Positions 39,301-54,315 of a stretch of 64,000 nt of DNA are shown here, in pieces. Below the pieces are notes generated by a model. The model did not search any database and had not been told where the DNA came from. It worked only from the letters and a program-made list of their open reading frames with translations. The translations under genes and the position numbers were made by a program. Source of the stretch: Stieleria maiorica. GTDB lineage: Bacteria > Planctomycetota > Planctomycetia > Pirellulales > Pirellulaceae. Where the stretch lies: contig NZ_CP036264.1 of NCBI RefSeq assembly GCF_008035925.1, positions 6,605,641 through 6,669,640 of the forward strand. Direction: 5' to 3'. Each line of letters starts with the position of its first letter. The first letter of the stretch is position 1.

Positions 39301-40728
39301 TTACGTGTTTTCTTTACGGATCGCTTGGACGGTTTGGTCGACGTCGCGGTACTGGACGGCATGCGGGGCGGTCTGTGACTTGCTGGCGGTGGCGGCGGCG
39401 ACGCCGGCGTATTCGCCCATCGCGACCGCGTTGCCGGTCACCCGGTAACTCGAGTGCGCGATAAAGTCGCCGCTGATGCATCGTCCCGCCATCATCAAAT
39501 TGTCCACCCCGGCGGCGACGAGCGCTCCCATCGGGATGTCAAACGGCTTGGCTTTGATCCCGCGATTTCCATAGCCGCCGTCGGCCTTCTTGAGCGCATG
39601 AATGTCGACGCAAAACCCGGACGTGCAGACGCTTTGGGGATCCTTTCGTCCCGCGACGACGTCGTCTTGCGTCACGCGGCTGCGGCCCTGGATCCGTCGT
39701 CCGTCACGAACGCCGATCTGTTCGCCGGTGGCGACCAAACGCAGGTCTTTCCATTCCGGCAGCGTCTGCAATCCCCTGACGATCTGGTTCAATTCGTTCC
39801 GCGCCCGAAACGTGGCTTCGGTGATCGCGGCTGCATCATCGGGGCGGACGCCATATTCGTGGTTCATCATCACCGAGGCGATCGATCCGCCCATGTGAAA
39901 CACGGTCGGCTTGGTGTAGCTCGGTTTGTAGCCGCCGCGTTCGATTTCGGCTCGGAAGCGATCTTTGTGTTTTCCGTCGCTGCTGCCGGCACGCGTGTAC
40001 TGGTGCAGCAATTCGGGCGGCGCCGAGATCACACCCATCAACGACATCGGTTGGCAGGGACAGTTGTCTGCTCCCGCGCTATCACCAATTTCAAACTCAC
40101 AACCGGCCAGCGCCCCGACGTCTCCGTCGCCCGTCGCGTCAATGACCACATCGGCCATCCAGGCCTGTCGGCCCGATTTGGATTCGGTCATCACACCCCG
40201 AATCCGATTGTTTTGGTCGAGATCCACCGCGACGACACGGGTGTGAAGCTGGACGCCGATGCGAAGTTCGCTGACGAGCGTTTCCAACACCCACTTCATC
40301 GTTTCCACGTCGTACATGTACGACAGCCACGTCCGCGGCCTCAGCGGGACGTGCCCGTACTGGTTGTTCGCCTGGTCCAGACGCCGGATCAGTTCTTTGT
40401 TGAACCCCGGTTTGTCGGAATCGATGACGTATGACAGCATGCCGCTGGTCCAGACCCCGCCCAGACATCCGTGACATTCCAACAGTTGCACCGACGCACC
40501 GGCTCGGGCGGCCGCGATCGCCGCGCTGACCCCGGCCGGACCGCCGCCACAGACCAGCACGTCGCTGCGGCCGGCGATCGGCGTTTGGCGTTGTGATTCG
40601 GTGATGGAATTGGGGGCGTGTCCCGATCCCGGCTCTTTCGAATCGGCTGCCGCCGACACCGCGAGTGTGTTCGCCGATCCGAGGACCGCCGCGGTTCCGA
40701 AAAGCATCTCACGTCGCTGTAGGGGCAT
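39301..40728 (-). CDS. FAD-dependent oxidoreductase, exported (FAD_oxidored family)
   Basis: 475 residues from ATG at 40728. A Tat-like start (MPLQRREMLFGTAAVLG) precedes an FAD-binding Rossmann motif, VLVCGGGPAGVSAAIAAARA, with LLECHGCLGGVW. ADVVIDATGDGDVGALAGCEF and a C-terminal DNLMMAGRCISGDFIAHSSY are typical of planctomycete FAD_oxidored proteins of unknown substrate. The gene is monocistronic, and its 3' end abuts the 39150-39289 repeat. Confidence 0.88.
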   Translation of the reverse strand: MPLQRREMLFGTAAVLGSANTLAVSAAADSKEPGSGHAPNSITESQRQTPIAGRSDVLVCGGGPAGVSAAIAAARAGASVQLLECHGCLGGVWTSGMLSYVIDSDKPGFNKELIRRLDQANNQYGHVPLRPRTWLSYMYDVETMKWVLETLVSELRIGVQLHTRVVAVDLDQNNRIRGVMTESKSGRQAWMADVVIDATGDGDVGALAGCEFEIGDSAGADNCPCQPMSLMGVISAPPELLHQYTRAGSSDGKHKDRFRAEIERGGYKPSYTKPTVFHMGGSIASVMMNHEYGVRPDDAAAITEATFRARNELNQIVRGLQTLPEWKDLRLVATGEQIGVRDGRRIQGRSRVTQDDVVAGRKDPQSVCTSGFCVDIHALKKADGGYGNRGIKAKPFDIPMGALVAAGVDNLMMAGRCISGDFIAHSSYRVTGNAVAMGEYAGVAAATASKSQTAPHAVQYRDVDQTVQAIRKENT

Positions 40729-40862
40729 GGTGTTCTCCCGCAGGTCTTTCTGCAATCCGTTTGGTTGATCCGCAATTGTAGCTGGCCGTGGTGTCGTCGG
40801 TGGACGCCGGTGTAAAATGCTCGGCAGCAATTCTTCCGCATCAGAGCTTCTCGAATCAGCGA

Positions 40863-41294
40863 ATGAACCGTCGCAGACCCACTGTCGTGCTCGGCAAATT
40901 GCTGTCTGTGTTGCCACCGGTCTTGCTGGCCTTGTTACCCCGGTTGGGCTGTCCGTGTCAGTACCCCGCTTATGCAGGCTTGCTCGGTTGGTTGGGGCTG
41001 GCGTTTTTGATGCAGACCAAGTACTTGCTTCCAATCACGGCGGCGTGTTTAACATTTGCCGTCGGCGGGCTGGCGGTCGGTGCCGAGCGGCGCCATGGTT
41101 ACCTGCCGTTCGGCGTCGGGTTGTTGGCGGCCATCGGGTTGATCGTCGGCAAGTTTGTGATCGCGTTTGATCCGATGGTCTATGGGGCGATCGCAGTGCT
41201 GTTGGCCGCCTCGGTTTGGAACGCGTGGCCGAGCAAAAAACGATCCAAATTGCGGATTGACGCTGATGGTCATGTGACGGAGGGTGACCACTGA
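40863..41294 (+). CDS. Small four-helix membrane protein, MerC-like
   Basis: 143 residues from ATG at 40863. Four hydrophobic helices are seen, with a CPC motif after the first (LPRLGCPCQYPAYAGLLG), reminiscent of MerC/MerT-type mercury transport proteins. No other mer gene is near, so mercury transport is only a suggestion; a general thiol-containing membrane protein is equally possible. It is divergent from the FAD oxidoreductase. Confidence 0.5.
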   Translation: MNRRRPTVVLGKLLSVLPPVLLALLPRLGCPCQYPAYAGLLGWLGLAFLMQTKYLLPITAACLTFAVGGLAVGAERRHGYLPFGVGLLAAIGLIVGKFVIAFDPMVYGAIAVLLAASVWNAWPSKKRSKLRIDADGHVTEGDH

Positions 41295-41563: not shown

Positions 41564-43228
41564 CTATTTCGCTTTGATGCGGCCGGGCATCTCGATTTGT
41601 GTCAGTTCCGGTGGACGACGGCTGGGGGCGAATGACAAGGCGGCGGTGGGGCAGGCGTCGACGCACTCTTCGGCCACTTTGGTTAATGCTTCATCAAGCT
41701 GACCTCCAAACGGTACGCTCAGCAAAACATCAAAACCGCGACCGACGAAGGACAGTCCCAACGGTTCTTGCGCCCGCTCGGCGATCTTGATGCACAGTTC
41801 GCACTTGATGCACTTGCCCGGTTCGAACAACACCGACGAGGCACGTCCAACGACTTCGTAGGGCCGACGCACGCGGGGAAAACGGTTCGGATTGGCGCCG
41901 TAAAACTCCGACCAGCGTTCCAGTTTGCACTTGTTGTGCGCCACACACCCACAGCCCAGGCAGCGCTGGGATTGTTCGGTCGCATCACAGGAAACGTAAT
42001 CCGAGCCGGTCGCCGGTACAGAACGCGGGGCGGGGACGGAGTTGGCCAGAAACTGGTCGATCTCGCCTGATTCCAGACGACCGATGCGTGAGGCAAAGTC
42101 GTGCCCCAGGCCGAGTTTCTTGCAGCCGGCGAGGAATTGGTTGATGATCGTTGCGGCTTCTTTCCCGTCGGCCGTGCTCCGCACCACCATCCCCTTGCCA
42201 CGCAACGCGTTGCCGACGGCGAACACGCCTCGGCGGTTGGTCGCGTAGGTTTCCGAGTCGACGTCGATGCCCTTGCGGCTGGCTTTGATTCCCAATTGTT
42301 CGACTCGTGCCGGCGTGGTCTGGCCGATCGCCAACAGCACCGCGTCAAACTCATCACACAACGCATCGAGTTGCTCTTTCGTGGTGATCGCTGCTTGCAA
42401 ACGAACGTCAACGCCCAGTCGGATGATTTGGTTGATTTCCGCATCCAAGATGTTGCGTGGCAAACTCTGTTCATCTTCTTCGCTGCGGAGTCGGCCGCCC
42501 AGTGCATCGTTTCGCTCGATCAACGTGCAGGCGTGTCCGGAACGGCGCAGGTAAAACACGCCGGCCAGGCCGGAGGGGCCGGCACCGACAATGGCCACGC
42601 GTTTTCCCGTGTCCGGCATGCAGGGAGGCAGATAGGGATCGTCGCTGGCCAAATCGACATCCGCCACGTAGCGTTTCAGATCACAGATCGCCACGGGGCC
42701 GTCGGCGGTCTTGCGTCGACAACCCTTTTCACACGGCTTGGGGCAGACGCGGCCGAGGACCGCCGGCAAGGCGATGTCCGCTTTGATGGTGACGATGGCA
42801 TCACGCAAGTTTTCATGGCTGATCTGGTCCAACATCAGCGGGATATCCATGTGTGCCGGGCAGGCAAAGTCACACGGGGCACGACAGTCACCGACGTGTT
42901 CGCTGAGCAGCAACTCCAGCGCCGTCCGTCGCAAGTCGCGAATCTCTTCACTCTCGTTTTCGATCTCCATCCCTTCGACGACCTTGGTCCCACAGGCCGA
43001 GATCAATCGGCCGGACCGGCGATCCTTAACCGTGCAGACCTGGCACGAGTTGGAGGGCTCGTAGCCTTTGAGATGACACAGCGTCGGGATTTCAACGCCC
43101 ACGAGCGCGGCGGCATCGACGAGGTTCGATCCCGGCGGGACGTCGATTTCGCGATCATCGATTTTGATGTTCACCACGGCGGGGGACCTCGTTCTGGATT
43201 CGACGTTCAAACGTGATGGCACGGGCAT
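41564..43228 (-). CDS. Fused NuoG N-terminal / GltD-like flavoprotein / ferredoxin subunit
   Basis: 554 residues from ATG at 43228; GTG codons at 43177 and 43174, behind a GAGGT site, are alternative starts. A plant-type 2Fe-2S domain comes first (Cys51, 62, 65, 79). Next is a cysteine cluster CRAPCDFACPAHMDIP (Cys115, 119, 123) as in NuoG and GltD. An FAD/NAD(P) glutamate-synthase small-subunit-like domain follows (VAIVGAGPSGLAGVFYLR, VFAVGNALRGKG). The end is ferredoxin-like (GKCIKCELCIKIAE, ECVDACPTAALSF). It is last in the nine-gene cluster, 200 bp after nuoEF. Likely a soluble electron-transfer subunit that joins NAD(P)H with a low-potential carrier; flavin bifurcation is possible but unproven. 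Confidence 0.85.
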   Translation of the reverse strand: MPVPSRLNVESRTRSPAVVNIKIDDREIDVPPGSNLVDAAALVGVEIPTLCHLKGYEPSNSCQVCTVKDRRSGRLISACGTKVVEGMEIENESEEIRDLRRTALELLLSEHVGDCRAPCDFACPAHMDIPLMLDQISHENLRDAIVTIKADIALPAVLGRVCPKPCEKGCRRKTADGPVAICDLKRYVADVDLASDDPYLPPCMPDTGKRVAIVGAGPSGLAGVFYLRRSGHACTLIERNDALGGRLRSEEDEQSLPRNILDAEINQIIRLGVDVRLQAAITTKEQLDALCDEFDAVLLAIGQTTPARVEQLGIKASRKGIDVDSETYATNRRGVFAVGNALRGKGMVVRSTADGKEAATIINQFLAGCKKLGLGHDFASRIGRLESGEIDQFLANSVPAPRSVPATGSDYVSCDATEQSQRCLGCGCVAHNKCKLERWSEFYGANPNRFPRVRRPYEVVGRASSVLFEPGKCIKCELCIKIAERAQEPLGLSFVGRGFDVLLSVPFGGQLDEALTKVAEECVDACPTAALSFAPSRRPPELTQIEMPGRIKAK

Positions 43229-43441
43229 ACGTGTTGGTGTCCAGGCTTTAGCTCAATACCGCTAAGTCAAGCGTCGTTCTCTTTCGGCAGGGGCCCGTAG
43301 GCTCGCGCCAAACGGCTGATCATCGTTTGACATCAGCCGGTTCGCGCCAGCGTCCGGGCCTTAACTTAGCGGTATTGGGCTTTAGCTGCCCACTCTCGCT
43401 GCATCGCAGCGACCGGGAATCGCCTCAAGGCTAAACACCAA
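43229..43441. repeat. Nested repeat: GTTGGTGT-family element interrupted by a MITE
   Basis: The outer element reads, on the minus strand, GTTGGTGTTTAGCC, a CGCTGCGATGCAGCG hairpin, then GTGGGCAGCTAAAGCC and TGGACACCAA. Uninterrupted relatives are at 55031-55190 and 56733-56808. Its right end overlaps the stop codon of the NuoEF fusion. The interruption is described separately at 43254-43377. Confidence 0.85.
43254..43377. mobile_element. 124-bp MITE-like element with target-site duplication
   Basis: 18-bp terminal inverted repeats: CAATACCGCTAAGTCAAG at 43254-43271 and its complement with one mismatch at 43360-43377. The interior also pairs (GGCTGAT with ATCAGCC), making a long hairpin. A 10-bp direct repeat GGCTTTAGCT flanks it at 43244-43253 and 43378-43387. 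Paralogous copies of the host repeat have this 10-mer (as GGCGAAAGCC on the other strand) only once, which shows it was duplicated on insertion. There is no transposase inside, so it would need one supplied in trans. Confidence 0.85.
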
Positions 43442-45815
43442 CGTTGTTTGGTTCGGAAGTGATGTAAACGGCGTGTTCGGGACAGACCTGGTAGCAACTG
43501 TCACAGCGTGTGCAGCGATCCAGATCGATGGTGTGTCGGTAATAGGGAGTCATCGGGATGGCATCGACGGGGCAGTGTTGGGCACAAAGTGTGCATCCGA
43601 TGCACCTGTCGTTGATGCGGTAGTCGATCAGATCGATGCATTTTCCGGCGGGGCAGTAGCCGTTGATGTGGGCTTCGTATTCGTCGCGAAAGTACTTCAA
43701 CGTGGACAGGATCGGGTTGGGAGCCGTCTTGCCGAGACCGCAGAGGCTGCCGGCGCAGACCGATTTGGAGAGGATTTCGAGCTGTTCCAGGTCGCCTCGC
43801 TTGCCTGCCCCGGTGCACAGCCGGTCCAGGATGTCCAGCAAACGTCGGGTGCCGACACGACAGAACGTACACTTGCCGCAGGATTGGTCTTGGGTGAACT
43901 TCAGGAAGTAACGCGCGATGTCGACCATGCAGTCCTTGTCATCCAGGACCACCAGCCCGCCGCTTCCCATGATCGACCCGACCGCCGACAACGATTCATA
44001 ATCGATTTGCGTGTCGGCAAGTTCCGCGGGGACACAGCCGCCGGAGGGCCCGCCGATCTGGACGGCTTTGAAGGTTCGACCGGGCTCCACGCCGCCCCCG
44101 ATGTCCTGGACGATCTGACGGATGGTGATTCCCATCGGGACTTCGATCAGACCACCGTTGCGGACCTTGCCGGCCAGCGCAAACGCTTTGGTTCCCTTGC
44201 TGGTCTTCGTTCCCAGCTTGGCCAGCTCTTTGCCGCCGTGTCGCAGGATCCAGGGGATCGTGGCGTAGGTTTCGACGTTGTTGATCAGCGTCGGTTTTTC
44301 CCACAGTCCGCTTTCGGCCGGGAACGGCGGTCGAATCCGCGGCGTCCCCCGTCCGCCTTCGATCGAGTGAATCAGCGCCGTCTCCTCGCCGCAAATGTAG
44401 GCGCCGGCCCCTTCGCGAATCTGAAGCTTCAAGCTGAAATCGGTTCCCATCACCGAGTCGCCCAGGATGCCTCCCCGTTGGCAGATGTCGATCGCGCCAC
44501 GAATCCGCTCGACCGCCAACGGGTATTCGGCACGCACGTAAAAGATCCCCTGGTGGGCATCGACGGTGCGTGCGGCGATGGCCATGCCCTCAATCACGCG
44601 AAACGGAATCGATTCCAACAGCACTTTATCCATGAACGCACCGGGATCGCCCTCGTCGCCGTTACAGATGACGTACTTGGTCGGGCTGTCTTGGGCGCGA
44701 ACGGTGCGCCACTTGGCATGCGTGGGGAAACCGGCACCGCCACGTCCACGCAGCCCACTGGATTCGACCTCATCCAGGATTTGATCGGGCTGGAGCTGTG
44801 TCAGACACTTCTTCAACGATTCGAATCCGCCGTGGCGAATGTACTCGTCCAAATCCAGTGGGTCGATCGCATCCAGCAAATCCAACGTCAGATGCTTTTG
44901 GGGACCGATGAACGCGTCGATCACGCCGTCCCGCGCCCCTTGATGCTTTTGCAAGACGTCCTGGTCTTCATCGGACTGCAGCCAATCAAGCATCCGCGAC
45001 GCGGCGTATCGAATCGGCTTGGAGATGCCTTTGGGCCGAATGTGCTTCAAGACGATCTTTCGCGCCATGTCGGGATTGACGTTGGTGTAGGTCTGTGACG
45101 CGCCGTCGGGCGAGACCAGTTCCACCAGCGGGACTTTGCTGCAAATCCCGGTGCAGCCGATTTGTTTGACATACGCGTCGCCGCCGGATTCATCGATCGC
45201 ATCGCACAGTGCTTCGTGCACCTTGTCGCTTCCCAGTGCCAGGCAACAGGACCCCAGGCCGACGCGAACTTCGGTGGTCCTGGGACCTCGCGGCTGTGAA
45301 ATCGGGCGGTGGACGGCGGAGAGTTTGACGAAATCGGCTTCGTCGTATTCCTGCAACATCTGTGGTGTCGTTTGAGAACTGACGTGACCAAAAATCGCGT
45401 CGTCGATTTGCACGACCGGGCCGAGCGTGCAGCACCCCAGACACGCCACCTTTTGGACCGTGAACTCGCCTTCGGGATCGGTGTCTTCGTGAGCAGCCAG
45501 TCGAAGCTCGTGACGGATCGCATCATCGACCAGATCGGCGCCTTTGACATGACAAGCCGTTCCGGTGCAGACGCTGATCATGTGGCGTCCGACGGGGCGA
45601 TGTCGAAAGTGGTCGTAGAACGACGCCACGCCGGTGATCGATGCCGGTGTGATTTCGGTCAATTCACAAACCCGTCGCAGCGCCTCCTGGGGCAGATAGC
45701 GATATTCCCTCTGCACCGCGTGCAGGATGGGGATGACGGCATCGGGCGTGCGGCCTTCCCGTTGGACAATTCGGTCGACGGGCGACAAGTCGATCATGTT
45801 GGTCGTGGTGATCAT
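43431..45815 (-). CDS. Fused NuoE-NuoF NADH-oxidising subunit with C-terminal ferredoxin
   Basis: 794 residues. Residues 1-165 are a NuoE thioredoxin-like 2Fe-2S domain (VCTGTACHVKGAD, VACLGCCTLGPV). A second such domain follows (LGSCCLALGS, IGCTGICSKVP), as in HndC/HydB. The NuoF core has FMN/NADH motifs GLRGRGGAGFPTHAKW, NGDEGDPGAFMDK and GAGAYICGEETALIHSIEGG, and the 4Fe-4S ligands CGKCTFCRVGTRRLL. Two C-terminal 4Fe-4S clusters (CIGCTLCAQHCPVDAI, CTRCDSCYQVCPEHAV) complete it. It would exchange electrons between NAD(H) and iron-sulfur carriers. No HydA or formate dehydrogenase gene is nearby. The last residues and stop lie in a repeat. Confidence 0.92.
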   Translation of the reverse strand: MITTTNMIDLSPVDRIVQREGRTPDAVIPILHAVQREYRYLPQEALRRVCELTEITPASITGVASFYDHFRHRPVGRHMISVCTGTACHVKGADLVDDAIRHELRLAAHEDTDPEGEFTVQKVACLGCCTLGPVVQIDDAIFGHVSSQTTPQMLQEYDEADFVKLSAVHRPISQPRGPRTTEVRVGLGSCCLALGSDKVHEALCDAIDESGGDAYVKQIGCTGICSKVPLVELVSPDGASQTYTNVNPDMARKIVLKHIRPKGISKPIRYAASRMLDWLQSDEDQDVLQKHQGARDGVIDAFIGPQKHLTLDLLDAIDPLDLDEYIRHGGFESLKKCLTQLQPDQILDEVESSGLRGRGGAGFPTHAKWRTVRAQDSPTKYVICNGDEGDPGAFMDKVLLESIPFRVIEGMAIAARTVDAHQGIFYVRAEYPLAVERIRGAIDICQRGGILGDSVMGTDFSLKLQIREGAGAYICGEETALIHSIEGGRGTPRIRPPFPAESGLWEKPTLINNVETYATIPWILRHGGKELAKLGTKTSKGTKAFALAGKVRNGGLIEVPMGITIRQIVQDIGGGVEPGRTFKAVQIGGPSGGCVPAELADTQIDYESLSAVGSIMGSGGLVVLDDKDCMVDIARYFLKFTQDQSCGKCTFCRVGTRRLLDILDRLCTGAGKRGDLEQLEILSKSVCAGSLCGLGKTAPNPILSTLKYFRDEYEAHINGYCPAGKCIDLIDYRINDRCIGCTLCAQHCPVDAIPMTPYYRHTIDLDRCTRCDSCYQVCPEHAVYITSEPNNVGV

Positions 45816-45839
45816 TCGGCATCAGGTCCGAAACTTGTG

Positions 45840-47663
45840 TCACTGGTTCTCATCATCAGCGCTCCCGATGCAGAACAAATGCTCGCTTCCCCGAATCAGA
45901 ATCCGTCCATCGGCGAAGGCGGGGCAGGTCACGCAGTCTTCGCCCAGTTGCGCCTTCGAGATCTGATTGCACGCATCACGGGTCGGCTGCACGATCCATG
46001 CCGTCCCGTCCCGGCCGAACAGATAAACGTGATCGCCGACCAAGCTGGGGGAGGAGAGGAAATCGGCTCCAAAGTCTTCTTCCCACAACGGTTCACCGCC
46101 TTCCTGTTTGTCGAAACAGAACAGCGTGCCGTAGGACGCCAGCGTCAACAAAAAATCATCGGTGACCAAAGGGCTGCAGGTATCCGGAAGTCCGTAGTCG
46201 GCGGTCCAGACGACGTGGGTGTCCGTCACGTCACCGGATCCGCCCGCGCGAATTGCGGCATAGATCGCGGTGTCGTTGCCGGCATAGACGATTCCGTCGG
46301 AGTACACCGGTGATGGGCCGACTTCGACTCGCTCGAGACATTTGGCACGCCACAGTTCCGTCCCATCGCTGGGCGAATATGCGATCACCCAGGGATCGCA
46401 GCAGGTGATGATTTGGTGTTGACCGTCGTGCTCGATCACGATCGGTGACGACCACGACGCCGGGGTTTGGCGAGTCGTTTCCCAGATCGGCTGGCCCGTT
46501 GCTCCGTCAAACGACATCAGTTTTGAAAGCTCGTCGTCGCCGGATCCTTGGTAGAATTGAACGATCACCGCACCCTGGAACGTCGCCAACGACGACGCGT
46601 GGCCGTAATTGTTTCGTTGCGGCACACCCAACGAACGCGTCCAACGTTCCCGGCCGGAATAATCCAATGCGACCAGCAACCCGTCGGCGAACATCGCAAA
46701 CACAAACCGCCCGTCGGTCGCCATCGTCGGCGCCGCGTAACCGGTGTCCTCGGAGACCTTGATCTTCTGGCCGGCGATGGACGGGGCGACTTGGAATTCC
46801 TTGCTCCAAAGGATTTCGCCGGTGTTCAAGTCAAAACAAAAAACGCCACGGACCGCTTCGCTCGCGCCGGAAAGAAACACGCGGTCATTCCACACGATCG
46901 GTGAATTCGCACCGGGTAGCGGCAGCGGTGTTTTCCACACGATTCCTTCACCGGACTGGCCGTCCCATTGCGTCGGAGCGTCTTGGAAATGCGAGACGCC
47001 GGACCCGCTGGGGCCACGAAAGCTGGGCCAATTCGCCTGCACGACTTCGACGCTTGGCAATTCCGGCAGCACCGGCTCGATTCTTGTCGGTGCAACGGGA
47101 GGTGTTGCGTCACCGACCGAAGCTTGATCGGATGCCAAATCATCCAAGGTGGCCGGCAACACACTCGGGTGATTCGCTTTCATTGCCCAGGTGGTGCCGA
47201 CCAGGGCCAGCATCACCACGGCCACCGCCCACGGTCCGCGGTGGCTCAACCGTTCGTCCGAGTCGGGACCGGGCAGTTTCGGTTCGGGGCGGGGGAGTCG
47301 TCGATGCAGCGTGGCGGCCCATTTGCTGAAGACAAGCGTGACGACAATTCCGCCCAGCAGCAGGTACGCCCCTCGTTCGGTAAAACGCTGTTCACGGAAA
47401 TACTCTTGCCGCAGCGCAAGATCGAGGTCCTGGATCAGTTGACGCAGTTGATCGTTGTCGGGTTGTTCCAAGTACTGCTGCCGAAGCTCGATGAAGGCGG
47501 TCTCCTCCAGCGGAAACTTGTTCAATCGGTTCGCGCCATCGATCACCAGGATTCCACCGACAAGCGTTGAAAACACCGCGGCCACGATCGCGGAGAGCAG
47601 GATGGATCGTTGGCTGAGCATGCGGCGTTGGAATTCGGTCTGCCTTTGCGTCTCATCTGTCAT
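45840..47663 (-). CDS. Membrane-anchored PQQ-like beta-propeller protein
   Basis: 607 residues from ATG at 47663. Three N-terminal hydrophobic helices (about residues 18-40, 95-113, 145-163) precede an exported propeller domain that opens NWPSFRGPSGSGVSHFQD. Repeated blades include VFCFDLNTGEILWSKEF, LVALDYSGRERWTRSLG and VIAYSPSDGTELWRAKC. Quinoprotein dehydrogenase active-site features are not evident, so it may be a scaffold, like BamB. It ends 24 bp before nuoEF, which ties the propellers to the redox subunits. Confidence 0.88.
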   Translation of the reverse strand: MTDETQRQTEFQRRMLSQRSILLSAIVAAVFSTLVGGILVIDGANRLNKFPLEETAFIELRQQYLEQPDNDQLRQLIQDLDLALRQEYFREQRFTERGAYLLLGGIVVTLVFSKWAATLHRRLPRPEPKLPGPDSDERLSHRGPWAVAVVMLALVGTTWAMKANHPSVLPATLDDLASDQASVGDATPPVAPTRIEPVLPELPSVEVVQANWPSFRGPSGSGVSHFQDAPTQWDGQSGEGIVWKTPLPLPGANSPIVWNDRVFLSGASEAVRGVFCFDLNTGEILWSKEFQVAPSIAGQKIKVSEDTGYAAPTMATDGRFVFAMFADGLLVALDYSGRERWTRSLGVPQRNNYGHASSLATFQGAVIVQFYQGSGDDELSKLMSFDGATGQPIWETTRQTPASWSSPIVIEHDGQHQIITCCDPWVIAYSPSDGTELWRAKCLERVEVGPSPVYSDGIVYAGNDTAIYAAIRAGGSGDVTDTHVVWTADYGLPDTCSPLVTDDFLLTLASYGTLFCFDKQEGGEPLWEEDFGADFLSSPSLVGDHVYLFGRDGTAWIVQPTRDACNQISKAQLGEDCVTCPAFADGRILIRGSEHLFCIGSADDENQ

Positions 47664-47676
47664 TGAACGGCGGACG

Positions 47677-47705
47677 TTCCACGCTCTGGCGAGCGTGGCT
47701 ACGAC
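47677..47705. repeat. Fragment of the GTAGCTACG element
   Basis: CCACGCTCTGGCGAGCGTGG is a perfect hairpin seen inside the larger elements at 29493 and 49056. It lies between the propeller and NapH-like genes. Confidence 0.65.
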
Positions 47706-47728
47706 ACCTGTGTTGCGGAGCTTTGCGT

Positions 47729-49177
47729 TCACGGTTTTTTCCCTCCGGCGGTCAATTGGACCAGCGGCCCCGTGGGCGTCCGGCCAGCGGGGAGGGCTTC
47801 GGAGACATCGGAGATCAGACCCAGCCTGACTTTTTCGACCGGGCAATACCAATAGCAACGCCCGCAGGAAACGCACCCGGCACGATCCGCCTGGTAATCC
47901 TCGCGGCGACGTCGCACCGACAGATAGATCAGCTTGAACCCGATCACCAATCCCGTCCAAGCACCCAGCAAGCCGCCCAGCGTGACGAAGTCATTGCGCC
48001 GCGTGAGCGCCGATTGATACAATTCATCGACCGACCGCGGCGAACCCCGAAAGGCATCACTGGCGTCGGTCGTGGTTTCCGCTATGCCCAACTCTTCCAG
48101 TCGCATCTGTTCGGCCAACCGCGATTCCGGGTGCCACTGTGCCAACGGAACGGCGAGCGTCGTTCCCAACCACCAGAAACCGGCCACCAGGAAGGGAGAG
48201 GCAATCAGGGCAAATCCGAATTGACGTTTGCCTCGTCGACGCGCCCCGGGCGTTTGCGCGACCGTGGGCGGGTGGATCGCTCCGTACGGACAAGCATCTT
48301 CACAAAGTTGACAATTGATGCACGTGCCCGGCGGGATGCTCAAACGCCATTTCGAAAAACACGACAACACGCGCAGGATCGCGCCATAGGGACACAGGTA
48401 CCGACAGTACGGGCGACCGACAAACACGCCGATCATTAAGATGCAGCTGCCAAAGATCAGCATGTCGGTGTTGCCGCCCAAGCGGAAAAACGCGATGAAC
48501 GGATCGTAGCGGCAGATGATGAATCCCGTCCGGGTCGCCGCAAAAATCAACGCCGCGCCCAAATAGATGTAAGCCACCAAGCCCAGGGAATGATCCAACC
48601 AACGCGGCACCGCAACCGAGCGAACGGCGATCAATTCTTGCATCGCCCCCAGCGGGCAGACCGAAGCACAGAAGGTTCGGCCGAAAAACAGCGTGAACAC
48701 CAACGGCAGAATAAAGAACGCCACCACCGCAAGCGGCACGACGTAGGTGGGATCGAACACTGCCAACGCGACATTCTGGGTCGCACCGATCGGACAAACA
48801 CAGCCCTGACGCCAGAACCCGAACCACAGCAAACTGGCGATCGTCAGCAGCAGCACGTTACGGCGAGAGCGTGACACCAAGGTGAAGTACGACGCCAGAC
48901 AGAGTGCGGCGAACAGAATCGCCACATCCAACACCGGCCCCATCTCTCCCTGGACCTCCGGAATCGTGGCGGTGGGGATCGGATGGTCGGAAAACTCCGG
49001 GACGGGGAACATCAGATCCGGGGTTTCGGCCGCCATCGCATCGCCCATCCACATCAACGTAGCGACGCTCGCCAGAGCGTGGCAAACGCCGCTGATCGAC
49101 CTTCGGGCGAAGGTCGCTACGTTTGACCGTCGGTTGATAGCGTTGCTTGTGCGACGTGGCGTTGTCCTGCTACTCAT
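47729..49177 (-). CDS. NapH/NosR-type polytopic membrane iron-sulfur protein
   Basis: Up to 482 residues. It has six or more membrane helices and the family's paired Cys motifs FWRQGCVCPIGATQN, TFCASVCPLGAMQEL and YCRYLCPYGAILRV. A 4Fe-4S ferredoxin segment CINCQLCEDACPYGAI and a C-terminal CVSCGRCYWYCPVEKV follow. Such proteins pass electrons between the quinone pool or cytoplasm and periplasmic partners. ATG at 49177 overlaps the upstream stop, but residues about 17-41 are encoded by a repeat element, so the native N-terminus may begin at MWMGDAMAAETPD (49054) or have been replaced. Confidence 0.88.
   Translation of the reverse strand: MSSRTTPRRTSNAINRRSNVATFARRSISGVCHALASVATLMWMGDAMAAETPDLMFPVPEFSDHPIPTATIPEVQGEMGPVLDVAILFAALCLASYFTLVSRSRRNVLLLTIASLLWFGFWRQGCVCPIGATQNVALAVFDPTYVVPLAVVAFFILPLVFTLFFGRTFCASVCPLGAMQELIAVRSVAVPRWLDHSLGLVAYIYLGAALIFAATRTGFIICRYDPFIAFFRLGGNTDMLIFGSCILMIGVFVGRPYCRYLCPYGAILRVLSCFSKWRLSIPPGTCINCQLCEDACPYGAIHPPTVAQTPGARRRGKRQFGFALIASPFLVAGFWWLGTTLAVPLAQWHPESRLAEQMRLEELGIAETTTDASDAFRGSPRSVDELYQSALTRRNDFVTLGGLLGAWTGLVIGFKLIYLSVRRRREDYQADRAGCVSCGRCYWYCPVEKVRLGLISDVSEALPAGRTPTGPLVQLTAGGKKP
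49056..49132. repeat. GTAGCTACG-family element inside an ORF
   Basis: AACGTAGCGACGCTCGCCAG and CGAAGGTCGCTACGTTT are inverted copies. The element encodes part of the N-terminus of the NapH-like ORF (peptide NVATFARRSISGVCHALASV). Confidence 0.75.
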
Positions 49178-49820
49178 CGGCGTGCACCTGATCGAGCAGT
49201 TTCTGTGCCGCCGTGTCGGCCTTCCCCGCCTTTTGCCGCATCACGCCCAACGCCACACGTTTCAGCCGATAGGGTTTGTCGGCGGAAACGTTGACAAAGG
49301 CGTCGCTGGGGCAGGCGACCGCGATCGCGCATTCGTTGCAATTGACACAGCGATCGTGCATGACTTGCAGATACAACGATCCGTTCATCAGCGCACAACC
49401 CTTGACGCACATCGCACAGCCGATGCAAGCGTCGGTGTCGATCGTGTACTCGTAGAAATCTTGACCCGCTTTGCCTTCGACAAAGGTTCGGATGATCGCT
49501 TCGGTCGGACACAACAAGTCCGCCGCGGCGGTGTCGCGACTGTCCAGCCCATCGAGTGTGTAATAGCCGGTGCATCGATTGCAGAAACCGCACATGTCGA
49601 AACACTGAACACATTTGACGGCTGATTCATCCAGCACACAGTGGGTGGCGCAGTTTCCACAGCCGACGCACTTGTCGGGATCGATCTGCCAACGATTCTC
49701 TTCCGCTTGGCCTCGTTGGCCGGCAAGGTATCCGCCCAACACACCGGCCGACACCACGCCGACGACCCGGGCTCCGTCGGCCAGGAACCCACGTCGGTCG
49801 GTTTGTTTTTCGTCGCTCAT
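49170..49820 (-). CDS. Exported polyferredoxin with twin-arginine start
   Basis: 216 residues from ATG at 49820 (MSDEKQTDRRGFLADGARV). The twin-arginine and the hydrophobic VVGVVSAGVLGGYLA suggest Tat export or an anchor. Cysteine groups CVGCGNCATHC, CVQCFDMCGFCNRC with a later LCP, CIGCAMCVKGC and CVNCNECAIAVACP imply about four 4Fe-4S clusters. It overlaps its neighbours on both sides (ATGA at 49817, and the NapH-like ATG at 49175-49177). It is the natural electron partner of the NapH-like protein, analogous to NapG. Confidence 0.88.
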   Translation of the reverse strand: MSDEKQTDRRGFLADGARVVGVVSAGVLGGYLAGQRGQAEENRWQIDPDKCVGCGNCATHCVLDESAVKCVQCFDMCGFCNRCTGYYTLDGLDSRDTAAADLLCPTEAIIRTFVEGKAGQDFYEYTIDTDACIGCAMCVKGCALMNGSLYLQVMHDRCVNCNECAIAVACPSDAFVNVSADKPYRLKRVALGVMRQKAGKADTAAQKLLDQVHADE

Positions 49821-50047
49821 GATGGCTCTCCCTCCATCGCCGGTTGCCTGGCTTGGTCCGCTTTGGGAAGCCCACATTTTTTAAACAGCCCGCAAGTCTG
49901 ACAGGGAGACGTCAGCTGGACGCACCCGAGATTGTTCGCGCGGCGGAGCAGGTTGAGCGTCAAGACGGACATCCCGCCCAAGAGGGCATAACGTCCGACG
50001 CGAACCAGCCATTGCCGACGATCATGGTCGAATTCATCACGTGTCAT
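49817..50047 (-). CDS. Small Cys-rich membrane-anchored protein
   Basis: 76 residues from ATG at 50047. The N-terminal part is charged (MTRDEFDHDRRQWL), followed by a hydrophobic helix LLGGMSVLTLNLL and a Cys-rich end: LGCVQLTSPCQTCGLFKKCG. The four cysteines could bind iron-sulfur or zinc. The family is unknown to me. The gene is coupled to the polyferredoxin (4-bp overlap), so it is probably part of the same complex. Confidence 0.7.
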   Translation of the reverse strand: MTRDEFDHDRRQWLVRVGRYALLGGMSVLTLNLLRRANNLGCVQLTSPCQTCGLFKKCGLPKADQARQPAMEGEPS

Positions 50048-51557
50048 TTGATTCACCCTCCACTCGATGCCAGCGGGAAGCGTGAGCGAGCGGCGCAGCG
50101 ACCTCGTTCCAAGGCTCCGCCTTGGAACGCGATGCCGGTGTGGCTCTGCCACACGCTACATGCGAGTCGCGAGGCGGAGCCTCTCGGGTAGTGTGTTCCC
50201 AGGCAGAGCCTGGGAACAAGTGGAAGCGTGAGCGAGCGGCGCAGCGACCTCGTTCCAAGGCTCCGCCTTGGAACGCGATGCCGGTGTGGCTCTGCCACAC
50301 GCTACATGCGAGCCGCGAGGCGGAGCCTCCCGGGCAGTGTGTTCCCAGGAAGAGCCTGGGAACAAGTGAAGCGTGAGCGAGCGGCGCAGCGACCTCGTTC
50401 CAAGGCTCCGCCTTGGAACGCGATTTCGGTGTGGCTCTGCCACACGTTGCATGCGATCCGCGAGGCGGAGCCTCCCGGCCAATGTGTTCCCAGGCGGAGC
50501 CTGGGAACGAGTGGATGTCTATCCCACTGGTGTGCTCATCACGAGGCATGAAAACCCGCACCGACTTTCGTCTCGGATCCAGCACCAGGACGCGTCCCCG
50601 GCTGTCCGCCGCGACGTCAAAGACCACGCCCGCTTGGTGGGGCCGCGCGTCACCGAGTTCGGATTGGGCGATGCCCAATTGCTGCGGCCCGGCGACGACC
50701 GAGCGGAATTCACCGTACTCGCTGTAAGCCTTGATCCGCGGCACGCCCTTTTCCGACGTCACGATCTCTCCGCCGGGCAAGACCGCAAACTGACTCGGAT
50801 TGCAGCAACCAAAAAAGCTCTCGGTCGCCGCGCCGGGATTGCCCCAACGGGCCTGCAACGCACCGTCAAACGTGTAGGTCTCGATCTGCAGTGCACCGGG
50901 ATTGGCGACGTGCAATTGTCCATTCGACCCGATCGCGATGTCGAACGTGGTGCTGGGGACGTTGAATGTTCGCCCCCCCGCTTCGGCATTACCGATCGTC
51001 CCCTGCAACTCGCCTGACGGGCCGAACCGCCATACCACGCGGTTGCCGGCATCGGCGGCGAAGACGGATTCATCGGCCACGGCGATCGACGCCAGGATCG
51101 CGGCGTCGGTCGGGACGTTCCAAGTCGCGACCCGACTGCCGTCGCGATCAAAGACTTCGATCCGGTTGCCGGATCCCACATAGATGCGACCCGGCGCGAG
51201 ATGTTGATCGTTGCCGACCGCCAAACAACTGGGACGGCCTTCGGTCGGGATCATTGCCAGTGTCGTGCCGTCTTGTCGATACACGCCGACCGTCTGGTCA
51301 CCGCCGACGTAAATCTGGTCCTCGGGACCGACGCTGATGCAGCGAGGCTGATCCATCGACACGCTGAACTCCCTCGTCTGCGCGTAATGAATCAGCGCCG
51401 GATCGACTTCGTAAACGCGAGAGAAATCCATCGTGAACGATCGATCGCGATGACCGGCCAGCGGGTCGCTGCTGACAACGGCATAACTGGCGAGGCCGAC
51501 CGCCACGGCAATGACGGCGGTGATCAATGTTCCGCGATAGTGGACCAGCAATTCCAT
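50037..51557 (-). CDS. NHL-type beta-propeller protein extended by repeat array
   Basis: 506 residues. There is an N-terminal membrane helix (residues 10-29), then an NHL-like propeller of about 310 residues: RCISVGPEDQIYVGGDQTVG, GRIYVGSGNRIEVFDRDGS, SVFAADAGNRVVWRFGPSGE and VVFDVAADSRGRVLVLDP. CCNP near residue 251 is unusual. The native protein seems to end near residue 349 (SGIDIH). The remaining 157 residues are read from the palindrome array at 50083-50518 (repeats of SAWEH..REAPPRGSH and KAEPWNEVAAPLAHAS). The ORF now overlaps the next gene by 11 bp. Confidence 0.85.
   Translation of the reverse strand: MELLVHYRGTLITAVIAVAVGLASYAVVSSDPLAGHRDRSFTMDFSRVYEVDPALIHYAQTREFSVSMDQPRCISVGPEDQIYVGGDQTVGVYRQDGTTLAMIPTEGRPSCLAVGNDQHLAPGRIYVGSGNRIEVFDRDGSRVATWNVPTDAAILASIAVADESVFAADAGNRVVWRFGPSGELQGTIGNAEAGGRTFNVPSTTFDIAIGSNGQLHVANPGALQIETYTFDGALQARWGNPGAATESFFGCCNPSQFAVLPGGEIVTSEKGVPRIKAYSEYGEFRSVVAGPQQLGIAQSELGDARPHQAGVVFDVAADSRGRVLVLDPRRKSVRVFMPRDEHTSGIDIHSFPGSAWEHIGREAPPRGSHATCGRATPKSRSKAEPWNEVAAPLAHASLVPRLFLGTHCPGGSASRLACSVWQSHTGIAFQGGALERGRCAARSRFHLFPGSAWEHTTREAPPRDSHVACGRATPASRSKAEPWNEVAAPLAHASRWHRVEGESNDT
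50083..50518. repeat. Tandem array of three ~146-bp palindrome-cluster units
   Basis: GTTCCCAGG occurs at 50195, 50341 and 50486; GTGAGCGAGCGGCGCAGCGA recurs three times. Each unit has GTTCCAAGGC..GGAAC, GTGTGGCTCTGCCACAC, GAGGCGGAGCCTC and GTTCCCAGG..GGGAAC palindromes. These are the same modules as the 19660-20639 array in reverse order. Stop-free frames cross it on both strands, and it forms the C-terminus of the NHL protein. Confidence 0.95.
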
Positions 51558-51599
51558 GGGCGGTTGAACTCCAAAATCATGTGTCGCCGTTTTCGCGTG

Positions 51600-53009
51600 T
51601 CACGGCTTCGCCTTCAAATCGATGCAAACCATGCGTGTCATGTCGCGCAGGATCAAACGGCCCGCAGCCATTGCCATCGGCCCCCAGGCATCGTGCCCAC
51701 CGGGAAGAACACTGTGCCGGGCCAGTCGCTTGTATCCGGCCGGTGTCGCTTCGGCGACCGTCAGCGTGCCGTCGTCATCCAGAATCAGCAGCAGGTCGTC
51801 GGCAAACATGTAGGGGCCTAGTCCGAATCGATCGCTGCCGCTGTCCCAGACCTGGTGTCCATCCAGGTCCATGCAAACCATCGTTTTCGCGCCCACCTTT
51901 CGAATGCCGAACAGATGTCCGTCGCGATAGATCGGTGTCTGTTGCTCGGAACTGAATTGTTTCGGCTTCAGTTCAAAAACCGTCTGCGCCCGGATGCCGC
52001 TTTCGGTCTCGACCAACTGCAACATCAACGCCCCCGATCCATAGCCACGCGACAGAAACAGCCGATCATCCGGCAACGCGACCGGTGACGGGCTGGTGGC
52101 GTTGATTTCTTTCCAAGCGGTCGACTCCCAAAGCAGCGATCCGTCATCGGCCGCGACGCCGACGACACCTCCGCTGGCGCAGTAGACGTACGTGCGACGC
52201 CCCTGAAATTCCATCGGGACGACGGACACATGGGTCATGTTCCAGCCCCTGGGATTCGGCGTCTGCCAAATCACGTCGCCGGTGCGATAGTCGATTGCCA
52301 TCAGCAGCGCAGTTCCGCATGGGGCGACGATCAGCCGGTCCTGGTCCACCAGCGGGCATTGACCGGTGTACCATTCCGGCACACGCGTCCCGAAGTCACG
52401 TTCCAGATCGATCAACCAGTGTGACCGGCCGGTCGCGGCGTCCCAACATGCCAGATGACAGCGTGGTCCCATCGTGATCACGTGATCCTCGACGATCACC
52501 GGCACGGTCCGCGTCATGCCGTGATGAAAGGCGACGACCACGGGATAGCTGTTGCGCCAAATCTCCCGACCGTCGTCTAGTGACAAGCAACGCAGCGTGT
52601 CGGCCTGGGCTTGCTTGTCGTAGTCCAACACATAGACGCGTCCGTCGCTGATCGCAGCCCCGGCGTAACCTTCGGCGACGTCGATCGACCACAGCACCGG
52701 CGGTCCCTCCTCAGGCCAGGAGCGTGCCAGTTTCGGGCCGTCGGTCGCAATCGAATCGCGATTCGGTCCCAGGAACCCGGGCCACCGGCCGGAAATGTCC
52801 GAAGCGGTTCCGGGACCCGCGATCGGCTGGCCGGGTTCGGGGCGATCTGTCTGGCCGGCGGCATCGATGGTTCCGTCGCGTCCCGGCGTGCGCGGTTCCA
52901 AACCCTTCGGCGGGCCGGTCGCCAACCAGAACGCCAGCGACACGACGGCGATCGTCGCGGTCAACGTCGGAAGGATCGCTTCGGGTGCGTGAAGTTTCAC
53001 AAGAACCAC
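51600..53009 (-). CDS. PQQ-like beta-propeller protein
   Basis: 469 residues. One N-terminal helix (TATIAVVSLAFWLAT) anchors an exported propeller beginning RWPGFLGPNRDSIATD. Blades include RVYVLDYDKQAQADTLRCLS, HLACWDAATGRSHWLIDLE and LLMAIDYRTGDVIWQTPNP. Its end reads RMVCIDLKAKP. It is paralogous to 53029-54315 (20 bp apart) and to 45840-47663. Likely a BamB-like scaffold or ligand-binding propeller; no dehydrogenase motif was seen. Confidence 0.88.
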   Translation of the reverse strand: MVLVKLHAPEAILPTLTATIAVVSLAFWLATGPPKGLEPRTPGRDGTIDAAGQTDRPEPGQPIAGPGTASDISGRWPGFLGPNRDSIATDGPKLARSWPEEGPPVLWSIDVAEGYAGAAISDGRVYVLDYDKQAQADTLRCLSLDDGREIWRNSYPVVVAFHHGMTRTVPVIVEDHVITMGPRCHLACWDAATGRSHWLIDLERDFGTRVPEWYTGQCPLVDQDRLIVAPCGTALLMAIDYRTGDVIWQTPNPRGWNMTHVSVVPMEFQGRRTYVYCASGGVVGVAADDGSLLWESTAWKEINATSPSPVALPDDRLFLSRGYGSGALMLQLVETESGIRAQTVFELKPKQFSSEQQTPIYRDGHLFGIRKVGAKTMVCMDLDGHQVWDSGSDRFGLGPYMFADDLLLILDDDGTLTVAEATPAGYKRLARHSVLPGGHDAWGPMAMAAGRLILRDMTRMVCIDLKAKP

Positions 53010-53028
53010 CTGGACAAATTCAACGAAC

Positions 53029-54315
53029 TCACTGATCGATGCAATACAGATGCTCTTCGGTGCGGATAAAGATTTGGCCTTCGGAAAACGCAGGGGTGGC
53101 GTTGGTCACACCGTCCAATTCGTTCTCGGCGACCAATTCGAACTCCTCCGGGTTGGGCTTGAAGACAATCGTCGTGCCGCGTTGGCTGAGCGCGTACAAG
53201 TGCCCGCCGGCCAGCACCATCGATGCCCAATGATCTTTGGCGCGACTTTTCCACAAACTCTCCCCGGTTTCGGCGTCTAGGCATTCCAAGGTTCCGGGGC
53301 CGGAGTTGGGACGATAGATGTAGCGGCCGACCATGATGCCCGTGCCGACGCTGCTGGGGTTTCGTTTCTCGACATGCCACAAGCGATTCGATGTGGTGAC
53401 GTTGCCGGTGCCGCCGAGCCGGAATCCCATCGCCGGCCCGCGCAAGTCCGCCATGGCGAAACCGATGCCGTTTTCGATCAGCGGCGAGGAACTGACCGCG
53501 TCGTAACGTGAACCGCTTAGTCCGTCGCACCACCACAGCAGATCGCCGTCGTCGAGATCGTAGCCGCACACACGGGTGCTCATCGCGCAAATGATCTGCG
53601 GCCGGCCGTCGACCTGCGCCACCACCGGTGTACTCCAGGCTCCGACGTCGTCGGCGTTCTTGTCGCCGGTGTAGGCTTCGTCGGTTTCCCACAGGGTCTT
53701 TCCGCTGGCCAAGTCGATCGCGGTCAGGAAAACACGTGCACCCGGGCCGGTTTGCAGCAGGACGCGGTCTTTGTAGATGATCGGCGACGAACCATAGCCC
53801 CAGATGTGTCTGAATTCACCCAAATCCCGCGACCACAGTCGTTGGCCAGAGTAGTCGTAGCAGTACAAGCCGGCCGACGAATGCCAGACGACGACACGCT
53901 GGCCATCGGCGGCCGGTGTCGTGCTGCCGAACGGGTTCTTGATGTGCGTCGTGTCTTCACCGAACTCAACCGTTTGTGTCCACAGCAGCATTCCGTCGCC
54001 GCGATCGAAGCACAGCAAGCTGCGCTGGCGACCGTCTTCGCTGCCGCTGGCAAGAAACACGCGGTCAGCAGAAACGATCGGGCTGCCGGCTCCTGGGGCG
54101 GGCAGATCGACCTTCCACTTGATGTTTTGCTCACGGCCCCAGCTCAACGGATAATCGTTTCCCTCGGCGACGCCATTGCCGTTGGGCCCGCGGAATTGTG
54201 GCCAGTCGCCCGCACGGACGGTTGCGACCGCGAGAAACACCACAAGTACCATCGCCAGCGCAGCCAGCGGTTTTGTCACCTCGTCAGCCACCAGGACCCG
54301 TTCTAACGCCTTCAT
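53029..54315 (-). CDS. PQQ-like beta-propeller protein, first gene of the redox cluster
   Basis: 428 residues from ATG at 54315. The signal helix AALAMVLVVFLAVATVRA is followed by DWPQFRGPNGNGVAEGNDYP, the standard opening of planctomycete propellers. Blades: SLLCFDRGDGMLLWTQTVE, GLYCYDYSGQRLWSRDLG, TLECLDAETGESLWKSRAKD. It ends RTEEHLYCIDQ. In-frame codons continue upstream of the chosen start but lack character. It leads the nine-gene minus-strand run. Confidence 0.9.
   Translation of the reverse strand: MKALERVLVADEVTKPLAALAMVLVVFLAVATVRAGDWPQFRGPNGNGVAEGNDYPLSWGREQNIKWKVDLPAPGAGSPIVSADRVFLASGSEDGRQRSLLCFDRGDGMLLWTQTVEFGEDTTHIKNPFGSTTPAADGQRVVVWHSSAGLYCYDYSGQRLWSRDLGEFRHIWGYGSSPIIYKDRVLLQTGPGARVFLTAIDLASGKTLWETDEAYTGDKNADDVGAWSTPVVAQVDGRPQIICAMSTRVCGYDLDDGDLLWWCDGLSGSRYDAVSSSPLIENGIGFAMADLRGPAMGFRLGGTGNVTTSNRLWHVEKRNPSSVGTGIMVGRYIYRPNSGPGTLECLDAETGESLWKSRAKDHWASMVLAGGHLYALSQRGTTIVFKPNPEEFELVAENELDGVTNATPAFSEGQIFIRTEEHLYCIDQ

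Follow-up and report, generated by a model that had tools for sequence, protein, structure and literature searches.

In this 64,000-nucleotide stretch of the Stieleria maiorica genome (the window, meaning the whole stretch of DNA that was analysed, which belongs to a single-contig chromosome of 9,894,293 bases), a leftward gene cluster at 41564-54315 contains an eight-gene cassette, which is best read as a membrane-coupled member of the Bfu (HydABC-like) enzymes with a new type of outlet. On balance, the encoded system would probably confurcate reduced nicotinamide adenine dinucleotide (NADH) and reduced ferredoxin, and export the electrons via a NapH-like membrane protein to an exported ferredoxin. 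The cassette core consists of the genes for propB, the NHL propeller, the small Cys protein, the ferredoxin exported by twin-arginine translocation (Tat), the NapH-like protein, propC, NuoEF and NuoG/GltD. NADPH below is the phosphorylated form of NADH, FAD is flavin adenine dinucleotide, and Fe-S denotes iron-sulfur. The features of the locus are as follows.

41564..43228, minus strand: BfuA-like subunit with a NuoG-N [2Fe-2S] domain, a GltD-type Fe-S region, an FAD Rossmann fold without NADPH domain and a C-terminal [4Fe-4S] region (Pfam Fer2_4, Fer4_20 and Pyr_redox_2; alignment to 9bov_A)
43431..45815, minus strand: fused BfuC-BfuB (NuoEF), in the order NuoE, thioredoxin-like [2Fe-2S], NuoF and two [4Fe-4S] (Pfam; PDB matches; ligand alignment)
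45840..47732, minus strand: propC, N-terminal hydrophobic segments and a BamB-type beta-propeller (Pfam PQQ_2, 1.3e-25); the start codon is uncertain, GTG at 47732 being one candidate
47729..49177, minus strand: NapH/NosR-like membrane protein with two ferredoxin motifs, two CxxxCP motifs and three further invariant Cys, C126, C128 and C222 (family searches, alignment, AlphaFold2)
49170..49820, minus strand: Tat-type exported polyferredoxin with 16 invariant Cys, 4x[4Fe-4S] (alignment of 11 sequences)
49817..50047, minus strand: small twin-arginine protein with four Cys, C42, C49, C52 and C58 (open reading frame (ORF) and conservation; a search of Pfam/NCBIfam gave no match)
50037..51557, minus strand: NHL-type propeller with conserved CCNP and EKG motifs (Pfam NHL, 5.8e-7); its 3' end runs through tandem repeats
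51600..53009, minus strand: propB, an N-terminal helix and a BamB-type propeller (Pfam PQQ_2; AlphaFold2; Foldseek)
53029..54315, minus strand: propA, a BamB-type propeller that is not part of the core (Pfam PQQ_2, 1e-30)
50076..50512, no strand assigned: three 146-nucleotide (nt) tandem repeats within the 3' end of the NHL ORF (repeat comparison)

According to PMC9304861, what defines bifurcating enzymes is a BfuBC core that carries clusters B1-B5 and C1, and these core clusters are regarded there as absolutely conserved. The ligands of cluster B2 are given in the same source as C438, C476 (often Thr), H525, C531 and C536 in NiFe-Bfu numbering, the His being absent from non-bifurcating homologues. 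In the window NuoEF the corresponding set C629, C667, H716, C721 and C726 was invariant in 12 of 12 sequences, with spacings of 38, 49, 5 and 5 compared with 38, 49, 6 and 5 in PMC9304861, and these residues were kept in 75-77 of 78 NuoEF sequences. The Cys of C1, B3 and B4 were likewise invariant in 12 of 12; in the wider set those of B3 and B4 were found in 77 of 78 and those of C1 in 73-74 of 78 sequences, the remainder being gaps. The window protein has the B5 Cys, as do 11 of 12 sequences; in L043 the domain is missing. The domains of BfuB, namely the flavin mononucleotide (FMN)-binding 51K domain, the NADH_4Fe-4S region and the C-terminal ferredoxin, as well as the thioredoxin-like [2Fe-2S] domain of BfuC, were all detected in NuoEF by Pfam, and an SLBB domain scored below its cut-off only. 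The best PDB matches were bifurcating-type subunits, with chains of the StnABC/NfnABC type and the HydB type as the closest solved relatives. Because the diagnostic ligands are present and the best PDB matches are of the bifurcating type, the window NuoEF can be assigned to the Bfu core with good confidence.

Judged by alignment, the last gene encodes a BfuA of the Stn/Nfn type from which the NADPH-binding domain has been removed. The window protein aligned to residues 3-288 and 425-671 of 9bov_A, with ~136 residues skipped, and its alignment with the NfnABC chain 9n5u_A was broken in the same way. In StnC the FAD-NADPH site sits in the GltD part (PMC10482914). The ligands of clusters A1 (C51, C62, C65, C79) and A2 (H111, C115, C119, C123) were invariant in 12 BfuA sequences. 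For motif counts 78 sequences were used, of which 70 were classified and 8 were unplaced; L104, L121 and L146 (score <100) were left out, and the length of L041 in this count is a motif-match artefact. The NADPH motif was absent in 68 of 70 BfuA, the window included, and present in L105 and L159. The FAD motif GxGxxG was kept in 67 of 70; the flavin domain was lost in L096 and L099 and degenerate in L084. Among the 63 sequences that were aligned, the Fe-S Cys were conserved at no less than 95%, and the Asp of the second FAD motif was D in 11, the window having N. In a quick tree of 90 rows, from which L092, L099 and L104 were missing as the motif was not found in them, L105, which keeps the NADPH domain, branches close to the base at a fork that was not resolved, and L159 falls within the verrucomicrobial group; the tree cannot order the loss of the NADPH domain in the clade of L159. 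As the NADPH motif is mostly gone and the Fe-S Cys are kept, the steady feature of BfuA would be an Fe-S wire, the NADPH chemistry having been dispensed with. The original prediction had spoken of an NAD(P)H-linked system; since the GltD part lacks the NADPH domain, this has to be replaced by NADH and ferredoxin as the predicted substrates. As a separate observation made by eye, L104 (13216-16170) encodes a single 984-aa protein in which NuoEF is fused to a NuoG-type A subunit, without the GltD part.

The absence of a recognisable catalytic subunit, which had been noted before, was confirmed, as Pfam/NCBIfam scans detected no hydrogenase or other such subunit in the cassette. A hidden hydrogenase partner was considered and rejected: [FeFe] hydrogenase was found in 3 and NiFe hydrogenase in 9 of the 12 cassette genomes, neither of them consistently. 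Thus no hydrogenase gene was seen to be regularly paired with the cassette from elsewhere in these 12 genomes, formate dehydrogenase not having been searched for. The missing subunit would be explained by the loss of the ancestral third-substrate site, with the NapH-like protein and the exported ferredoxin as the conserved partner. In the own genome the NiFe gene sits beside its own NuoF; this locus, L207 (3395-8273), contains the sole other NuoF match of the genome, in an apparent Hox-type NAD-reducing NiFe-hydrogenase operon. L206 (5428-17633), also from the own genome, is a complex I cluster in which no NuoEFG was seen and which has a GltD-type gene just upstream; its NuoH was confirmed by Pfam and GltD by search, the other subunits being assigned by eye.

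A candidate source of reduced ferredoxin was found in most relatives, a 2-oxoacid:acceptor oxidoreductase being above cut-off in 54 of 60. Pyruvate:ferredoxin oxidoreductase (PFOR) was above cut-off in 24 of 37 genomes of the phylum with the exported ferredoxin compared with 110 of 355 without it (Fisher p = 8e-5), and in 11 of 12 cassette-positive compared with 8 of 48 cassette-negative relatives (p = 2e-6). Within the genus, PFOR was found in 6 of 6 genomes with the cassette and in 1 of 8 without.

The eight-gene cassette is conserved far beyond this genome, more than by chance. Among the 60 genomes that were searched as relatives, the own genome included, 12 had a near full-length relative of GltD, the last gene. 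The other 11 contained the eight genes in the same order down to ~40% identity, some genes being missing or diverged in the most distant: L039 (G020) and L038 (G029) meet contig ends, the small Cys gene was undetected in L041-L043, and propC was unrecognised in its place in L043. The exported ferredoxin was found in 37 of 392 genomes of the phylum. A contig scan with this protein gave 161 relatives, and the analysis went on with the best 80; their records were mostly titled Planctomycetota or Verrucomicrobiota groups, Rhodopirellula sp. and Stieleria sedimenti being examples of the titles found for the closest relatives. Omnitrophota, KSB1, Sumerlaeota and 'Actinomycetes' each appeared in the title of one record among these best 80 of 161; the 'Actinomycetes' record may be a binning error, and the Omnitrophota locus is without NuoEF and its gene order differs.

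In the wide set the exported ferredoxin was the criterion by which every locus was selected. Six duplicates (L110-L113, L117, L128) were removed ahead of the locus counts, the wider conservation figures and the BfuA motif counts, leaving 120 loci that hold this gene. In the 82 loci with at least 8 kb downstream, NapH was found in 82, propC in 77, NuoEF in 72 and GltD in 70, and in the 95 loci with at least 4 kb upstream the NHL propeller was found in 92, propB in 81 and the small Cys gene in 72. One common order of the seven larger genes was seen in 54 of 71 loci with both flanks. The propA gene stood upstream in nearer relatives only (L033-L037, L110-L116, L118, L119). Conserved synteny of all nine genes had originally been named as the point to check; eight genes stand across Planctomycetota and Verrucomicrobiota, and propA is limited to the nearer relatives. 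A TonB-dependent-receptor-like ORF was seen by eye between NapH and propC in L149 (12418-14553; record titled KSB1). In L108 (5461-9889) the exported ferredoxin and NapH are the only cassette genes, and the next ORF, of 869 aa, is of unknown type.

In the window itself all nine predicted leftward ORFs (41564-54315) were found on the minus strand with the domains described for them (Pfam/NCBIfam). Tight junctions had been described as well, and this holds for the ATGA and other short overlaps and for a 24-nt gap, but the gap between NuoEF and GltD is larger (202 nt). The start of the exported ferredoxin gene (49820) forms an ATGA overlap with the stop of the small Cys gene, the NapH start (49177) overlaps the stop of the exported ferredoxin gene (49170), and NuoEF starts 24 nt after propC, whose own start is uncertain and, with the candidate GTG at 47732, would overlap the NapH stop. 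The tandem repeat copies in the NHL gene are 100, 97 and 91% identical to the reference, and the ORF is lengthened to 506 aa compared with 279-421 aa in relatives. Just downstream of the cassette lies an FAD_oxidored-family gene (window 39301-41034), which was rejected as a cassette member, a syntenic full-length relative being found in L033 alone of 11 loci.

In the NapH-like protein 15 Cys were invariant in 42 of 42 sequences; across the 104 sequences of a wider set, conservation was 85-95% for the last four Cys and 95% or more for the others. Topology prediction by charge placed the two ferredoxin and the two CxxxCP motifs in the cytoplasm and C126, C128 and C222 in the periplasm. Two weak NapH/NosR-like paralogues in the own genome are without these three Cys (by eye). 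The AlphaFold2 model of the NapH-like protein had a mean predicted local distance difference test (pLDDT) score of 79.7. The exported ferredoxin had an invariant Arg pair and 16 invariant Cys in 11 sequences, enough for four [4Fe-4S] clusters, and in the small protein an Arg pair and the four Cys were conserved at no less than 95% in 81 aligned sequences. For propB the AlphaFold2 model (pLDDT 89.4) was a propeller, with BamB as the best Foldseek match (1.2e-17); the best 50 of 1713 matches were BamB, tetrathionate hydrolase and YxaL entries. These matches of the model suggest scaffolding or binding rather than redox chemistry. The propellers were also considered as a pyrroloquinoline quinone (PQQ)-dependent dehydrogenase; this was rejected, as the curated score was far below cut-off and the fold matches of propB lie elsewhere, the PQQ-binding residues not having been examined.

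Compared with known systems, the cassette resembles the Stn/Nfn-type Bfu enzymes (StnABC of Sporomusa ovata, 8oh5/8oh9; NfnABC, 9n5u) in its NuoE/NuoF-type bifurcating core and in a third subunit made of NuoG-N, a GltD-type Fe-S region, an FAD fold and a C-terminal Fe-S region. Unlike in these enzymes, NuoE and NuoF are fused, the NADPH Rossmann domain is deleted, the C-terminal formate-dehydrogenase-like domain of BfuA is absent, the Cys of one C-terminal cluster are lost, and the genes are linked to membrane and exported genes. Coupling of a BfuBC core to a membrane partner is described for Nuo-Bfu and Mbh-Bfu in PMC9304861, but there the partners are complex I or hydrogenase pump genes and not a NapH-like protein with an exported ferredoxin. 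In the main text of that paper NapH and GltD have 0 occurrences, and its Table 1 names no such third reaction; 17 of 57 Bfu clades are without assigned function (PMC9304861), and the cassette sequences might fall among these. The original prediction had called the system possibly undescribed, and no description of the cassette was recognised in searches of open-licence PMC papers.

NapGH systems are characterised by two CxxxCP motifs, two cytoplasmic [4Fe-4S] clusters and a four-cluster exported ferredoxin. As in NapGH/MauMN, both a four-cluster exported ferredoxin and a CxxxCP membrane protein with ferredoxin clusters were found in the cassette, but the scores were far below the curated cut-offs of the known families (NapH 36.4 bits, cut-off 213.05; mauM_napG 17.1 bits, cut-off 178.85). 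NapH has four helices (PMC9012536), whereas the cassette protein has extra helices and extra Cys on the predicted periplasmic face. A further difference is the cytoplasmic Bfu core, and no nitrate reductase or cytochrome was recognised in the cassette. Like the complex predicted for the cassette, Rnf is a membrane complex dealing with ferredoxin and NADH. However, no RnfABCDEG genes were recognised in the cassette, and its NADH and ferredoxin are predicted to stand on the same side of the reaction and not to be exchanged.

From the composition and conservation of the cassette, the core ligands of the window protein, the loss of the NADPH site and the topology signals, all of which are read directly from the genes, we infer the following route. 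The cytoplasmic fused BfuC-BfuB would take two electrons each from NADH and reduced ferredoxin, the latter supplied by pyruvate or 2-oxoacid:ferredoxin oxidoreductase, and merge them by a bifurcating-type activity run towards confurcation. BfuA, a former NADPH-transhydrogenase subunit, would dock on the NapH-like protein and pass the electrons, mainly as an Fe-S wire, to its two cytoplasmic ferredoxin clusters. Crossing of the membrane would rely on Cys-ligated clusters close to either face, on a quinone, or on both, with two end points, the 4x[4Fe-4S] ferredoxin exported by Tat and the small Tat-anchored Cys protein, which propC, propB and the NHL propeller may hold at the membrane. With effective potentials of -280 mV for NADH and -500 mV for ferredoxin (PMC9304861, Table 1), the merged electrons would average about -390 mV. 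Outward flow is preferred because this value fits an Fe-S acceptor and the inside-negative membrane potential aids outward electrons. The membrane-spanning system for electron export or import that had been postulated is therefore retained in so far as the membrane and exported Fe-S genes stay with the NADH module, and of the two directions export is favoured. Going one step further, and more tentatively, the third substrate of Bfu may have been rewired to a dedicated transmembrane Fe-S conduit; aided by the membrane potential, the exported ferredoxin would then serve as a low-potential reductant for an undescribed periplasmic reduction.

Several points weigh against confurcation with export. 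A terminal acceptor was not found. Cluster B5 is not constant, Ser replacing two of its Cys in 12-13 of the 78 NuoEF sequences, including L178, and because the FAD motif of BfuA is so widely kept, the flavin may still have a role. The NapH loop 215-236, which contains C222 and was assigned outside, is slightly positive, and a PDB fold search with the NapH model gave no significant match. The link between PFOR and the cassette is confounded by ancestry, which inflates both associations, and complex I also follows the cassette in the 10 genus members tested. Separation of the genes belongs here as well. The original prediction had named cytoplasmic and membrane genes in unrelated places in related genomes as evidence against it, and in some loci the membrane and periplasm genes indeed have no NuoEF and GltD alongside. 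In 4 of 7 genomes searched that are without adjacent NuoEF (loci L133, L137, L166, L154) a full-length fused NuoEF was found elsewhere (1344-1410 bits), which counts in favour of the proposed system, and searches of the other three (L145, L187, L181) gave only other HydB-like proteins and no fused orthologue, so that the membrane module can exist without fused NuoEF. A GltD-type gene lies next to the separated NuoEF of L198 (strain CA13) and of L200, but none was seen beside that of L199; for L201 the gene caller gave no resolution of the neighbours.

A different cytoplasmic partner replacing NuoEF was looked for by eye and rejected, as the neighbours in L133, L137, L138, L154, L166, L187, L181 and L145 looked mutually unrelated; L164 and L080 end soon after the membrane genes. 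Likewise, no extra partner beside the separated NuoEF was common to L198-L201 (by eye). Two further observations were made by eye in these loci: a 2-oxoacid:ferredoxin oxidoreductase-like ORF pair near the separated NuoEF-BfuA of CA13 (L198, 1258-4265), and NifU- and NifS-like ORFs directly behind the membrane module in a Thermoguttaceae record (L137, 5161-7543).

NapH works with menaquinol (PMC9012536), and for this reason a quinone may be the real partner. In the corresponding alternative, an NADH/ferredoxin:quinone oxidoreductase, electrons would pass from BfuA through NapH to (mena)quinone, leaving assembly or regulatory parts to the exported ferredoxin and the propellers. Such an enzyme would be like the proposed Nuo-Bfu minus proton pumping, and menaquinone is among the third substrates proposed for Bfu enzymes in PMC9304861. 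We regard it as unlikely, though worth keeping in mind: much energy would be released without a visible pump, the four-cluster exported ferredoxin is highly conserved and accompanied by NapH in every locus with enough flank (82 of 82), and three invariant NapH Cys lie on the predicted periplasmic face.

Electron import appears rather improbable. Here a periplasmic donor or quinol would feed the exported ferredoxin, NapH and BfuA in turn, and the core would bifurcate to NAD+ and ferredoxin; NiFe-Bfu is described as fully reversible, and the potentials of the best characterised third substrates are close to -400 mV (both PMC9304861). However, a low-potential periplasmic dehydrogenase was not recognised in the cassette, inward electrons would oppose the membrane potential, and the association with the ferredoxin-producing PFOR, though confounded, speaks for the opposite direction.

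That the cassette serves as the NADH-input (N-)module of complex I, which lacks NuoEFG in the own genome, is very improbable. It would fit that the own-genome NuoH lies in a complex I cluster without nearby NuoF and that the only NuoF matches in this genome belong to the cassette and the Hox-like hydrogenase locus, but no NuoH match was found in G024 (99% complete, one contig) or G022, both of which carry the cassette, G020, G029 and G052 combine the cassette with a separate NuoF that lies near NuoH, and the cassette genes stay with NapH. A Stn/Nfn-type NADPH:NAD+/ferredoxin transhydrogenase beside an unrelated membrane operon is hardly credible, since, although BfuA is clearly of the NuoG-N/GltD type and the relatives L105 and L159 keep the NADPH domain, its motif is absent from nearly all BfuA (68 of 70) and adjacency to the membrane genes is kept across phyla.

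If confurcation with export is correct, it would be the first bifurcation-linked export of low-potential electrons known to us and would widen what Bfu cores plug into. The intermediate states of BfuA (2 of 70 with the NADPH motif, 2 of 70 without the flavin domain) would form a natural series from a soluble transhydrogenase to a membrane-coupled complex. It would also account for a widespread gene cluster, and it would predict a reductive process in the periplasm of planctomycetes and Verrucomicrobiota.

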